Of a stretch of DNA of 64,000 nucleotides, positions 4,770-64,000 are shown one piece after another. The translations under genes and the position numbers were made by a program. How positions within the stretch are numbered: the stretch's first letter is position 1; each line of letters opens with the position of its first letter. Below the pieces are notes generated by a model that saw nothing but the letters and a program-made list of their open reading frames with translations, was not told the origin of the DNA and ran no database searches. Source of the stretch: Catellatospora sp. KI3 (GTDB taxonomy: Bacteria; Actinomycetota; Actinomycetes; Mycobacteriales; Micromonosporaceae); NCBI RefSeq assembly GCF_029948125.1, contig NZ_JASAMB010000019.1, positions 62,001 through 126,000 on the forward strand. The letters run 5' to 3'.

Positions 4770-4824
4770 GTTAAGAAGGGCCCCTTTTACCTCGCATTGC
4801 GATAACAAGGGGCCCTTCCTTACC
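4770..4824. repeat. Family A dyad element, copy A1
   Basis: Two arms, each itself a near palindrome around GGGCCC, flank an inner palindrome resembling TCGCATTGCGA. It starts 27 bases after the permease stop and lies between two co-directional ABC cassettes. It could act as a bidirectional terminator; see the family finding. Confidence 0.8.
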
Positions 4825-5028: not shown

Positions 5029-5805
5029 ATGACCACAGCAGCCCCGCCCCAGTCGCGCCAGCGCGCCGAGACCGCCGCCGCCCGCGCGGCCGGAGTCTGG
5101 AAGGTGTACGGCTCCGGCGAGGCCCAGGTCGTCGCCCTGCGCGACGTAGACGTCGAGCTCGAGCGCGGCCGGTTCACCGCCATCATGGGCCCGTCCGGCT
5201 CCGGCAAGTCCACCCTGATGCACTGCCTGGCCGGGCTGGACAGCGTGACCCGCGGGCAGGTGTCCATCGGCGAGACCGCGGTGACCGGCCTGTCCGACGC
5301 CGGGCTGACGAAGCTGCGCCGCGACAAGGTCGGCTTCATCTTCCAGCAGTTCAACCTCCTGCCGACCCTGTCCGCCGAGGAGAACATCCTGCTCCCGCTC
5401 GCGATCGCGGGCCGCAGACCGGACCCCGCCTGGTACGCCACCGTCATCGACACCGTCGGCCTGCGCGACCGCCTGCACCACCGCCCCAGCCAGCTCTCCG
5501 GCGGCCAGCAGCAACGGGTCGCCTGCGCCAGGGCCCTGGTCGCCCGCCCCGAAGTGATCTTCGCCGACGAACCGACCGGCAACCTCGACAGCCGCTCCGG
5601 CGCCGAAGTGCTCGCCTTCCTGCGCCGCAGCGTCACCGAGTACGGCCAGACCATCATCATGGTCACCCACGACGCCAACGCGGCGTCGTACGCCGACCGG
5701 GTCGTGTTCCTGGCCGACGGCGCGATCGTGCACGAGCTGACCTCGCCCAGCGCGGACGCCGTGCTCGATACGATGAAGAGCCTCGACCGCCGGGACGGTC
5801 GGTAG
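5029..5805 (+). CDS. ABC transporter ATP-binding protein, MacB/LolD type (copy 2)
   Basis: ATPase of the second cassette, 258 residues, with the same Walker A, Q-loop, LSGGQQQR and DEPTGNLD motifs as copy 1. I start it at ATG 5029, with GAGGGA about 10 bases upstream, rather than at the TTG one codon earlier. From 5161 to 5699 it matches copy 1 at all but three positions, including synonymous sites; outside that block (first ~40 and last ~35 codons) the two differ. The permease follows after 2 bases. Confidence 0.92.
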   Translation: MTTAAPPQSRQRAETAAARAAGVWKVYGSGEAQVVALRDVDVELERGRFTAIMGPSGSGKSTLMHCLAGLDSVTRGQVSIGETAVTGLSDAGLTKLRRDKVGFIFQQFNLLPTLSAEENILLPLAIAGRRPDPAWYATVIDTVGLRDRLHHRPSQLSGGQQQRVACARALVARPEVIFADEPTGNLDSRSGAEVLAFLRRSVTEYGQTIIMVTHDANAASYADRVVFLADGAIVHELTSPSADAVLDTMKSLDRRDGR

Positions 5806-8366: not shown

Positions 8367-8418
8367 AAAAGGAAGGGCCCCTTCTTATCGCAATCCGATG
8401 TAGAAGGGGCCCTTCTTC
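8367..8418. repeat. Family A dyad element, copy A2
   Basis: Palindromic arms around GGGCCC with an inner ATCGCAATCCGAT-like core, starting about 16 bases after the permease stop. Inverted in orientation relative to A1. Confidence 0.8.
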
Positions 8419-8474
8419 ACGCGCCGGAGCGCTTCGGCTTGGCGGCGGGTTCCGTTCGCGGGATTGCCAAGAAG

Positions 8475-15743: not shown

Positions 15744-15781
15744 CCCCACCCCGCCCGCCGCCCGTCCCCGGGCCGGCCTAG

Positions 15782-15845
15782 GTGCAGTTTCAGGGAAAGT
15801 GCAGGAATCCTGGCATCGATTTGTGCACTTTCCCCGGAACTGCAC
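15782..15845. repeat. Family B dyad element, copy B1
   Basis: Arms GTGCAGTTTCAGGGAAAGTG and its near complement (mismatches at two positions) with a 20-odd-base centre, 38 bases after the permease stop. Confidence 0.8.
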
Positions 15846-17158: not shown

Positions 17159-17183
17159 CCTGCCCCACCCGGGCCACAGGTTG

Positions 17184-17231
17184 GGAAGGGCCCCTTCTAC
17201 ATCGCATTGCGATAAGAAGGGGCCCTTCCTT
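17184..17231. repeat. Family A dyad element, copy A3
   Basis: Arms around GGGCCC and inner core ATCGCATTGCGAT, between the convergent binding-protein (stop 17158) and HAD (stop 17238) genes; a likely two-way terminator. Confidence 0.8.
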
Positions 17232-23924: not shown

Positions 23925-23978
23925 GTAAGGAAGGGCCCCTTCTTATCGCTTTCCGTAGCAGAAGGGGCCCCTCTTAAC
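23925..23978. repeat. Family A dyad element, copy A4
   Basis: Begins one base after the MBL stop. Its loop TATCGCTTTCCGTAGCA is the near reverse complement of the loop of copy A5, so the element exists in both orientations. Confidence 0.8.
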
Positions 23979-24020
23979 ACTCGACGACGCGCCGAACACA
24001 CACGTGGGCGCGTCGAATCC

Positions 24021-24083
24021 TGCAGATTCGGGGGAAAGTGCCTGTATTTCGGCCAGGATTCGTGCAGTTTCCCCGAAACTGCA
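24021..24083. repeat. Family B dyad element, copy B2
   Basis: Arms TGCAGATTCGGGGGAAAGTG and CAGTTTCCCCGAAACTGCA, 25 bases past the stop of the minus-strand GNAT gene. Together with A4 it fills the gap between two convergent genes. Confidence 0.75.
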
Positions 24084-24108
24084 CGGACCCACGCCGCCCG
24101 GGTAGCCG

Positions 24109-30140: not shown

Positions 30141-30333
30141 GGGGCCCAAGCAGAACTGGGCACGGAATCCAAACGGGAGACCGTCAAACTCGCGCTTGCC
30201 CTCGCGGTCGGCATGGCAGGACGGGACCGGTCGATCACGATGTCCTGGCTCCAGGCGAATGTCCCGATCCACGGCATCGACCTCGCGCTGATCGCCGACG
30301 CCACCACTCCCTGGCCCTTCGCCTAAGGCGTGA

Positions 30334-30405
30334 GTGGCTGCAGTTTCGGGGAAAGTGCGTGAATGTCGGACGCCATTCGTGCACTTTCCCCGAAACTGCA
30401 GCCAC
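30334..30405. repeat. Family B dyad element, copy B3
   Basis: The longest copy: arms of about 25 bases (GTGGCTGCAGTTTCGGGGAA...) are perfect complements. It ends 43 bases past the stop of the alpha-glucosidase gene, where it would terminate the sugar operon. Confidence 0.85.
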
Positions 30406-39728: not shown

Positions 39729-39806
39729 CGATACTCCGTGCAAAAACTCGATACCCCCACGCAACCTCTTGCACCCTCGCCTCGGCCGCGTCCGCCCGGC
39801 GCCGTG

Positions 39807-39870
39807 GTGCAGTTTCGGGGAAACTGCCGGAATCTTGGGCCGGATTCCTGCACTTTCCCCGAAACTGCAC
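39807..39870. repeat. Family B dyad element, copy B4
   Basis: Arms GTGCAGTTTCGGGGAAACTG and its complement, between the MFS stop (39942, 72 bases away) and the LacI start (39715). Confidence 0.82.
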
Positions 39871-42839: not shown

Positions 42840-42892
42840 GTTAAGAAGGGGCCCTTCTGCTACGGAAAGCGATAACAAGGGGCCCTTCCTTT
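42840..42892. repeat. Family A dyad element, copy A5
   Basis: Begins two bases after the stop of the small membrane gene. Loop GCTACGGAAAGCGATA matches the complement of A4's loop. Confidence 0.82.
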
Positions 42893-49749: not shown

Positions 49750-49852
49750 ACCCGCACTCCCCCGACGCCCGCCCCGGCCCCCGCCGACGGCGGGCGTCGC
49801 CGTCTTCGCACCCGTCCCGCGCACCCGTCCCGCGCGGGCGCCCCAAGATCGG

Positions 49853-49914
49853 TGCAGTTTCGGGGAAAGTGCAGGATTCGGGGCCAAGATTCGTGCACTT
49901 TCCCCGAAACTGCA
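49853..49914. repeat. Family B dyad element, copy B5
   Basis: Arms TGCAGTTTCGGGGAAAGTGC and its exact complement, 103 bases after the PAC2 stop. Confidence 0.85.
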
Positions 49915-49945
49915 TGATCGATCGTGACGTGTCAGGCGCGACACG

Positions 49946-61773: not shown

Positions 61774-61784
<11 letters not shown>

Positions 61785-64000
61785 CGATGTGCTCGGGGCG
61801 CACCGGCACCCGGGTCAGGGCCGCGCCCGTGGCGGCGCGGATCGCGGCCACGACCGCGGGCGTGGACGAGATGGTGGGCGGCTCGCCCACCCCGCGTAGA
61901 CCGTACGGGCTGTGCGGGTCGGCCAGCTCCAGGACGTCGAGCCGCATCGGAGGCATGTCCATGATCGTAGGGAGCAGATAGTCGGTGAAGGACGGATTGC
62001 GTACCATTCCGTCCACGACCTGGATCTCCTCCATCAGGGCCAGGCCTAAGCCCTGCGCCGTGCCGCCCTGGATCTGGCCGGCCACGGCCTGCGGGTTGAC
62101 CGCTTTGCCGACGTCCTGGGCGGTGGCTATCTCGACGACCTTCACCAGGCCCAGTTCGACGTCTACGTCGACGGTGGCCCGGTGGGCGGCGAAGGCGTAC
62201 TGGACGTGGGCGTCGCCCTGGCCGGTTTCTGGATCCAGTGCGTGCGTGGGGCGGTGGCGCCACTCCACCGTCTCCTCCAGCGCGCCGGCCTCCAGCGCCC
62301 CCACCCACTCCTCAGCCGAAAGGAAGGGACCCTTCTTATCGTTATCTGATGTGGAAGGGGCCCTTCCTAACGCCGTGAGGCGCGCGGCGAGGCGGGCGCG
62401 CAGGGCGAGGCAGGCGGCGCGGACGGCGCCGCCGGTCATGTAGGTCTGGCGGGACGCCGAGGAGGAGCCCGCGCTGCCGACACTGGTGTCGGCGGGCGCG
62501 ATGGTCACCTGCTCCACGCCCAGCTCGGTACGCACGATCTGCGCCTGCACCGTGACCAGCCCCTGCCCCACCTCGGCGGCGGCGGTGTGCACCAGTGCGG
62601 CCGGGCGCCCGCCGACCAGCTCCAGCCGCACCCGCGCGGTCGCGAAGTCGTCGAACCCCTCGGAGAAGCACACGTTCTTGATGCCGATGGCGTAGCCGAC
62701 CCCGCGCACCACCCCCTCGCCCCGCGTCGTGTTGGCGGTGCCGCCGGGCGGGAAGTCGGCCCCGGCCGGGGCCTGCGGCCGCTCCCGCACCAGCCGCAGC
62801 AGCTCGGCGACCGGGGCGGGGCCCTCCACGAGCTGCCCGGTCGGCATCCGGTCGCCGGTGGTCAGCGCGTTGCGCAGCCGCACCTCGACCGGGTCCAGGC
62901 CGACGGCGGCCGCGAGCCGGTCCATCTGCGACTCGTACGCGAAGCAGGCCTGCACGGCGCCGAAGCCGCGCATCGCCCCGCACGGCGGGTTGTTGGTGTA
63001 GAGGCCGTAGGCGTCCATCACCACGTTCGGCACGTCGTAGGGGCCGATGCCGAGGGTGGCGGCGTTGGCGACGACCGCGCCGGTGCTGGAGGCGTACGCG
63101 CCCCCGTCCAGCACGATGCTCGCCTTCACGTAGACCAGGCGGCCGTCGCGGTCGGCGCCGTGCTCGTAGCGCAGCCGGGCCGGGTGGCGGTGCACGTGGC
63201 CGAAGAACGACTCCTCCCGGCCGTACACCATCTTCACCGGACGGCCGGTGCGCAGCGCGAGCAGGCACGCGTGCACCTGCATGGACAGGTCCTCGCGCGC
63301 GCCGAAGGCGCCGCCGACCCCGGCCAGGGTGAGCCGCACCTTCTCCTGCGGCAGGCCCAGGCAGGCCGCGACCTGCTGCTGGTCGACGTGCAGCCACTGG
63401 GTCGCGATGTACAGGTCGACGCCGCCGTCCTCGGCGGGCACCGCCAGCCCGGACTCCGGGCCGAGGAACGCCTGGTCCTGCATGCCGACCTGGTACTCGC
63501 CGGTGACCACGACCGGGGCGGTCGCGGCCGGGTCGCCCTTGCGGATCGGCACGTGGCGCAGCAGATTGGGCCGGTCGGCATGCACCCGGTCCGAGCCTGG
63601 CAGCAGCGCCGCGTCGGGGTCGGTGACCGGGGCGAGCACCTCGTAGTCGGCCTTGATCAGCGAGGCGGCCCGGCGGGCGGTCTCGGGGTGGTCGGCGGCC
63701 ACGATCGCGATCGGCTCGCCCTGGTAGCGGATCTCCGTGCCCGCCAGGACGGGCTGGTCGGCGTGCTCCAGGCCGTACACCCGGCGTCCCGGCACATCCT
63801 GCGCCGTGAGCACCGCGTAGACCCCCGGCAGCGCGACCGCCGCGGTCAGGTCCAGGCCCGTGAGCTTCGCGCGGGGGTACGGGCTGCGCAGCGTCGCCCC
63901 CCACAGCATGTCGTCGGCCCACAGATCCGACGAGAACGCGAACTCGCCGCTGACCTTGAGCCGCCCGTCCGGCCGCTGCGGGCTGCTGCCCACCCCGCCC
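61774..64000 (-). CDS. xdhB: Xanthine dehydrogenase molybdopterin subunit, 5' end outside window, with in-frame palindrome
   Basis: At least 740 residues of the large subunit that hydroxylates hypoxanthine and xanthine. Ald_Xan_dh_C domains include GEFAFSSDLWADDMLWGATLRSPYP at the start, VGGAFGAREDLSMQVHACLLAL, RGFGAVQACFAYESQMD and the C-terminal GLRGVGEPPTISSTPAVV with its catalytic Glu. Around residues 540-560 the family sequence is interrupted by ALGRAPSTSDNDKKGPFLS, encoded by family A element A6; both sides continue as expected. The first GTG here is 63993, but the frame stays open to the edge, so the start is probably outside. Confidence 0.9.
62319..62371. repeat. Family A dyad element, copy A6, inside xdhB
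   Basis: Arms AAGGAAGGGACCCTTC and GAAGGGGCCCTTCC with the TATCGTTATCTGAT centre lie wholly inside the xanthine dehydrogenase gene, in the same orientation as A2 and A4. Its length keeps the frame, adding about 18 residues including SDNDKKGPF. Confidence 0.85.

Follow-up and report, generated by a model that had tools for sequence, protein, structure and literature searches.

A dispersed hairpin repeat of Catellatospora, normally located at gene 3' ends, also resides in frame within xdhB and other genes

How does a palindromic repeat come to lie in frame within the gene for a xanthine dehydrogenase-like protein? The question arises from copy A6 of a palindrome family, here called family A, in a 64,000-nucleotide window of DNA (C11:62001-126000 of the genome designated G000) from Catellatospora, a genus of the Micromonosporaceae (Actinomycetota). 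A preliminary description had proposed that xdhB is read through A6 without stop codon or frameshift, and that the element adds about 18 residues in a loop of the protein. Indeed, the minus-strand reading frame of xdhB is open through the entire element (Table 1). The assignment of the host protein is based on its Pfam domains (MoCoBD_1, MoCoBD_2 and Ald_Xan_dh_C) and on its best structural matches in the PDB, namely aldehyde oxidoreductase and xanthine oxidase/dehydrogenase (Z 44.8-48.0). In the plus orientation the core of A6 reads AAGGAAGGGACCC...CCTAAC, and it encodes roughly residues 543-561 of XdhB (LGRAPSTSDNDKKGPFL). The loop position is borne out by an AlphaFold2 model, in which residues 544-561 are predicted to form a coil between the helices 515-543 and 562-569, with a low confidence that falls below 50 at residues 552-555. 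The codons flanking the insert are conserved as in functional genes (0.91 at codon positions 1-2 versus 0.67 at position 3), and A6 itself is predicted to fold into a hairpin of -24.6 kcal/mol on the gene strand (z -4.5) and -28.7 kcal/mol on the other strand (z -5.2). The proposed addition of residues held in part: about 19 residues are coded in frame, but they stand in for about 20 host residues instead of being added to them. As about 20 other residues occupy this place in element-free homologues, the length of XdhB is hardly altered (741 residues, compared to 742 in four named empty Catellatospora species).

Table 1. Copies of family A and the gene hosting copy A6, with positions in the window.
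Feature	Positions	Strand	Remarks
Family A copy, intergenic	4770..4821	-	27 bp from stop codon; AAGG end faces away
Family A copy, intergenic	8369..8420	+	17 bp after stop codon
Family A copy between convergent genes	17180..17231	-	6 and 21 bp from stop codons
Family A copy, intergenic	23927..23978	+	3 bp after stop codon
Family A copy, intergenic	42840..42891	-	2 bp from stop codon; AAGG end faces away
xdhB-like gene, molybdopterin subunit, xanthine dehydrogenase/aldehyde oxidase family	61774..63999	-	5' end beyond window; Pfam, PDB relatives
Family A copy A6, 52-nt core	62320..62371	+	antisense to xdhB, in frame
Left arm of A6, with near-palindromic unit GAAGGGACCCTTC	62322..62336	+	14 of 15 stem positions pair with right arm
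Right arm of A6, with GAAGGGGCCCTTC	62353..62367	+	centre 31 bp from left-arm centre

We read the XdhB orthologues from all 11 genomes of the genus. The antisense in-frame copy is present in four of them, namely G000, its nearest named relative C. tritici (G009; 96% XdhB identity), G007 and G001. In G008 a remnant (GRAPS-PFL) is left, the loop having been lost by an in-frame deletion, and five orthologues (G002, G004, G005, G006 and G010) are free of the element. The insert is thus lineage-specific, as had been anticipated. The host segment LRLVDGxVxDxxGxVVA is absent from XdhB of the antisense-copy group, and the insert therefore stands in its place. Relatives with an empty site exist in the form of the five element-free orthologues, but a simple clean addition was not seen, as host residues were replaced. 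The XdhB of C. coxensis (G003) contains an element in the same loop, but in the sense orientation and with the host segment kept (E 8.7e-10, 37.3 bits in the gene sense versus 15.2 bits antisense). It is read in another frame, and its leading TAA reads GAA. Because the xdhB DNA of C. coxensis is closer to that of the four named empty species (90.6-93.2% identity) than to the window gene (about 83%), this copy is best read as an independent second insertion in the opposite orientation.

When 2,362,336 bases of six Catellatospora genomes were searched with a family HMM (built from 13 copies, 6 of them in the window, and then iterated), 116 copies were detected, whereas the reversed sequence gave none, which excludes a chance match of A6. 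Exactly 52 nt long are 99 of these copies. With a fixed pattern and up to three mismatches we counted 216 copies in G000, 278 in G001, 138 in G002, 185 in C. coxensis, 57 in G004, 100 in G005, 150 in G006, 266 in G007, 43 in G008, 194 in C. tritici and 146 in G010, while the reversed-pattern control gave none in any of the 11 genomes. A second pattern matched in 16 of 150 genomes of the Micromonosporaceae, comprising all 11 Catellatospora genomes and five from two other genera, in which the HMM confirms family A; since a pattern misses divergent copies, genomes without a match may still contain the family. No published report of family A was found in the open PMC literature, subscription papers being outside the scope of that search, and the window has no Rfam match at the curated score.

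The element has a loop of the type TTATCG... flanked by two near-palindromic arms of 13 bp, whose centres are spaced by 31 bp. All 99 ungapped copies start with AAGG and end with AC, positions 48-52 are mostly TTAAC or CTAAC, and no T-run follows the stem in the column make-up of these 99 copies. A single hairpin was predicted for each of five element strands (-22.1 to -39.5 kcal/mol, z -3.2 to -9.3), whereas an element-free sequence folded like its shuffles (z 0.41). Arm positions 11/40 pair in 92 of 95 distinct copies compared to 56.8 upon shuffling, and in 16 of 18 versus 9.3 within C. tritici. At positions 10/41 only 27 of 57 copies pair in G000, which is still above the shuffled value of 17.5, and the remaining variable arm pairs show little or no excess of covariation. 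The second arm of some copies is a direct rather than an inverted repeat, and the central positions are then unpaired. The consensus GTAAGG...TTAAC comprises 54 nt, which is a multiple of three, and has one stop-free frame per strand. Copies in that frame therefore represent inserts of 17-19 residues. Among the 99 copies, the frames used by the coding copies are open in 92 (sense) and 82 (antisense), and the other frames in 3-30.

Based on gene borders from a simple gene caller of our own, not from an annotation, the 116 copies were assigned to convergent gaps (53), tandem gaps (43), divergent gaps (8), gene interiors (11) and a sequence edge (1). At random, 18.8 copies would be expected in convergent and 34.1 in divergent gaps. 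In 78 of the 104 intergenic copies, no more than 30 bp separate the AAGG end from the stop codon of the gene on that side, versus 9.3 at random, and in tandem gaps the AAGG end is directed toward the upstream stop codon in 33 of the 43 copies. The five other copies in the window, which the preliminary description had placed outside genes and near stop codons, are indeed located there (Table 1). In addition, at five sites family A is present in one species while a different palindrome occupies the same gene end in a relative, as if the hairpins at gene ends were interchangeable. From the placement bias and these replacements we infer that the element acts as a terminator-like or mRNA-end hairpin at gene 3' ends. 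Intrinsic terminators are stable, GC-rich hairpins located a few bases after the stop codon. Family A resembles them in being a stable hairpin just 3' of stop codons, but it differs from them in lacking a T-run, in being a conserved family with lineage dialects and in occurring also within genes.

The turnover of family A is marked, and its 3'-end positions are poorly kept beyond the sister species. Among comparable G000 copies, 15 of 19 are common to the sister species C. tritici, and 3 of 8 to G008 when the XdhB remnant is scored as not shared. Considering G000 genes with a copy after their stop codon, the copy was kept in 9 of 14 cases in C. tritici, 1 of 5 in G007, 0 of 4 in G008, 0 of 3 in G001 and 0 of 2 in G005. 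The lowest copy number among the 11 genomes is that of G008, whose coding copies are decayed or deleted, so that the system seems to be fading in this genome.

Several further palindromes were observed. A second dispersed family (GTGCAGTTTCGGGGAAAGTGC...GCACTTTCCCCGAAACTGCAC) has five copies in the window (15776-15845, 24015-24084, 30332-30401, 39801-39870 and 49846-49915), and a copy of it in G008 is located at a gene end that holds family A in G000 (C11:24342). Other palindromes (AAGTTGCCGGGCAATCG... and GCGTCGATCTTGCGCGAACTG...) replace family A at gene ends, i.e. in G009 C1 at about 39.06-39.32 kb, in G008 opposite G009 C10:91088, and in G007 opposite G001 C16:143958.

If A6 were a singular case, the element should be absent from other proteins. 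The search proposed in the preliminary description revealed the opposite, with in-frame copies in UreF, AtuA and a protein with a C-terminal CysS_C domain of G000, in a GT87 protein, and, in other genera, in the tail of the ribonucleotide reductase (RNR) alpha subunit (L352), in GlnE (L358) and in an NRPS adenylation domain (L366). The latter three were among 31 copies counted at best-scoring matches and not in a random sample; a 32nd copy in this set came from C. tritici and was left out of the count. The UreF copy is present in 10 of the 11 Catellatospora genomes; apart from G008, where it is deleted in frame, there is no empty orthologue inside the genus. We searched UreF in 61 genomes of the Micromonosporaceae, 30 of which gave a match. 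Thirteen genomes of other genera align over at least 238 query residues in one piece: 10 of these are 14-23 codons shorter, one is 7 codons shorter than the stretch covered, and two are longer. Judged from lengths alone, this would suggest that the element is absent from UreF of other genera. The AtuA copy is present in four of the 11 genomes, with a remnant in G008 and an empty site in six, the copy in the CysS_C-domain protein is aligned in 10 of 11 genomes, the gene being split in G002, and the GT87 copy occurs in C. tritici only, the other 10 genomes being empty. The CHAD gene of G000 and C. tritici terminates within the element, which is entered in the third frame, where the gene stops.

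This set of coding copies was chosen and is not complete. A view less dependent on the choice of sites comes from eight stretches that were not picked around listed element matches, in which 7 of 76 copies are intragenic. These represent three loci, namely XdhB (four genomes), GT87 and the CHAD gene (two genomes). Two stretches of this set and four others were taken around xdhB, hence XdhB is included; an additional 20 regions of G000 had been picked around matches, two of them (C13 and C34) for their XdhB match. One intragenic match, in a 42-residue ORF of C56, is probably spurious and was excluded from the gene list.

Taken together, we consider it very probable that family A is a hairpin repeat dispersed in the genomes of Catellatospora and of some other Micromonosporaceae, that it is normally positioned at gene 3' ends, and that some of its copies reside in frame inside genes where this is tolerated. 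The 52-54 nt repeat would normally occupy gene 3' ends and, as copies spread, some would land inside genes, where in-frame copies would give inserts of 17-19 residues that survive at tolerant sites such as loops, linkers and tails. Such inserts are probably translated and roughly neutral. For xdhB, the distribution over the genus would be explained by one antisense entry in the ancestor of G000, C. tritici, G008, G007 and G001, with the copy now replacing a variable host segment between two helices. Most of this copy would later have been deleted in frame in G008, and C. coxensis would have gained a second copy in the same loop in the sense orientation.

Similar residues recur in several of the host proteins, and one could thus imagine that the peptide xLGRxPSTSDNDKKGPFL is a protein motif under functional selection, the palindromic DNA being incidental. 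This view is barely credible, since 104 of the 116 copies of the same DNA are outside genes, and since genes read either strand, which results in different peptides (PSTSDNDKKGPFL or RKGPFLSxxVxEGxLLN). Allowing for drift among orthologues, the peptide is (x)LGRxPSTxxxDxKGPFL for antisense copies and xRKGPxLSxxVxEGxLxN for sense copies. Moreover, only two of 80 named XdhB homologues carry the element, and the other 78 are without the peptide.

A regulatory role of the coding copies is another alternative: they could be internal attenuators or terminators that selection maintains, rather than inserts that are simply tolerated. The arms of coding copies still pair at 11-15 of 15 positions (the G008 AtuA remnant, with 8, is the exception), and at third codon positions the arms show a higher identity than codons for invariant amino acids do, in the CysS_C-domain protein (0.98 versus 0.79) and, by smaller differences, in AtuA (0.82 versus 0.76), XdhB (0.80 versus 0.78) and UreF (0.83 versus 0.80). 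However, the host genes are unrelated and the orientation of the copies varies, the GT87 copy is found in one genome only, and G008 has lost its XdhB and UreF copies in frame. We therefore assign a low probability to such a role.

Palindromes that code for protein segments are known from Rickettsia and Wolbachia, and other bacteria harbour REPs, ERIC or Correia elements that are read in frame. The Rickettsia palindromic elements (RPE) were reportedly described by Ogata et al. in 2000 and 2002. The likeness to these elements that the preliminary description had drawn is supported by the in-frame copies in unrelated proteins and by the empty orthologues for XdhB, AtuA and GT87. Like RPE, as far as these are portrayed in parts of PMC2229807, family A consists of repeated palindromes that are intergenic as well as in frame within unrelated conserved protein genes. 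However, RPE are given a length of 105-146 bp in the same source (PMC2229807), whereas family A measures 52-54 nt and falls outside this range; RPE-4 and RPE-6 are counted among the shorter REPs in a passage of PMC3733652. RPE copies are further described, in a section of PMC6649704, as losing repeat identity over time, while the coding copies of family A keep their pairing and follow a genome-wide dialect. Unlike RPE, family A is hosted by a free-living actinobacterium and its copies are strongly tied to gene 3' ends; since it is mainly an oriented 3'-end hairpin, the term 'selfish' alone may be incomplete. Compared by descriptions, the Rickettsia-type label is an analogy and not a membership.

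According to sections of PMC3733652, GTAG/CGTC REPs too are short, high-copy palindromes located downstream of genes in convergent or unidirectional gaps, which may provide a stop codon and are occasionally found within ORFs; the term 'actinobacteri' is absent from the text of that paper. Family A could accordingly be a REP-type element whose mobility depends on a REP-associated tyrosine (Y1, HUH) transposase, and Y1 genes are present in six of the 11 genomes, including G007. However, no Y1 match (PF01797) was obtained in G000, C. tritici, G001, G008 and G010, of which the first three are copy-rich. Also, the AAGG start and AC end of family A leave no GTAG/CGTC tag at either end, and each unit contains two arms at fixed spacing. 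Mobilisation of this kind is thus very improbable.

Family A also shares features with ERIC and with the Correia/NEMIS MITEs with open frames, which parts of PMC2229807 portray as small, non-autonomous stem-loops that are sometimes fused in frame, but family A is shorter. Mobilisation as a MITE by a DDE transposase acting at the inverted arms would fit these arms, which form terminal inverted repeats in the consensus stem and in the folds, and it would fit the presence or absence of copies between relatives. Yet the clearest empty site (G000 C1:21232 versus C. tritici) shows no target-site duplication, most other flanks being too diverged, and the second arm is a direct repeat in some copies. 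Neither was a parent transposon found among the genes between neighbouring copies, which are not transposase-like judged by their first 70 residues. A MITE origin is therefore quite improbable. Altogether, family A works like RPE or intragenic REPs, but matches neither definition fully. Neighbouring copies up to 3 kb apart are arranged + then - in 17 of 21 pairs (including G000 C1:108527-109145), and 9 of these 17 pairs enclose one called gene, as if they were cassettes bounded by two copies.

The arm centres of family A follow one of two dialects genome-wide, GGGCACC or GGGNCCC. Every parsable arm in G007 and G001 reads GGGCACC/GGTGCCC, G000 uses GGGNCCC, and C. tritici is mixed, with 18 exact GGGNCCC arms and 15 GGGCACC arms in called elements. 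The coding copies of XdhB and AtuA have GGCACC/GGTGCC in G001 and G007 and GGNCC in G000, a change by which KKVPF becomes KKGPF, and in C. tritici the UreF and AtuA copies are of an intermediate type, in which one arm has changed. The copy in the CysS_C-domain protein has changed in both arms, even though they are unpaired at that position in most species, and pairing alone therefore does not explain the dialect.

Whether copies were replaced as a whole or changed in place is a matter of mixed evidence. One and the same loop is found in the copies in XdhB and UreF of both G000 and C. tritici. It occurs in 3 of 60 G000 copies, and the UreF copies of the other species checked have different loops; this suggests a transfer of sequence between copies, or re-insertion. 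The loops of the XdhB and AtuA copies of G007 are likewise identical. Conversely, the loops of eight orthologous 3'-end pairs of G000 and C. tritici are more alike than random pairs (0.88 versus 0.73), which suggests that these copies changed in place. Between G000 and G007, the coding loops are no more alike than random ones (XdhB 0.71, UreF 0.71, AtuA 0.76, CysS_C-domain protein 0.53).

One possible explanation, which we put forward tentatively, is that a trans-acting, sequence-specific process, such as a DNA-binding protein or a copying enzyme by which copies are continually rewritten, imposes one arm dialect on the 3'-end hairpins of a genome. A change of its specificity in the ancestor of the source species and C. 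tritici would have led to rewriting of copies throughout the genome, whether outside or inside genes. The amino acid changes in XdhB, UreF and AtuA would then have nothing to do with the proteins themselves, and sequence would have been transferred between the copies in XdhB and UreF. Alternatively, covariation and dialect shift might result solely from structure-driven correction within each hairpin by template switching at quasi-palindromes, and require neither a genome-wide factor nor any copying from one copy to another. The arms do covary within genomes, the similarity of the orthologous 3'-end loops is expected of in-place change, and a part of PMC6649704 considers template switching in coding palindromes. 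However, such correction is unlikely to suffice, as it leaves unexplained why one dialect prevails in nearly all copies per genome, why both arms have changed in the mostly unpaired CysS_C-domain copy, and why XdhB and UreF have identical loops in G000 and C. tritici.

Two other ideas were rejected. Restriction avoidance as the cause of the dialect shift does not agree with the frequencies in G000 outside the elements, where GGCACC (2147 observed, 2117 expected) and GGGCACC (648 and 660) are not depleted. Single sites resembling DNA-uptake sequences do not occur either: there are no lone GAAGGGNCCCTTC units outside elements in the six sampled genomes, and at most two of the other dialect in any of them. 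Separately, GGGCCC, GGTACC and GGCGCC are strongly under-represented in these six genomes (observed/expected 0.10-0.25), which suggests old restriction avoidance in the genus.

Family A represents such a case in large, GC-rich, free-living actinobacteria. Its empty sites, the loop that was hit in both orientations and the in-frame loss in one relative provide a natural series for the gain and loss of protein segments from mobile DNA, and the half-way dialect shift in C. tritici poses a testable question on the homogenisation of dispersed repeats. Caution is also warranted, in the sense that peptides common to unrelated actinobacterial proteins may stem from DNA repeats.

Lastly, the window contains a 300-nt repeat with 95% identity (1456-1755 and 5074-5373) in two neighbouring long ORFs, indicative of a recent duplication or conversion.
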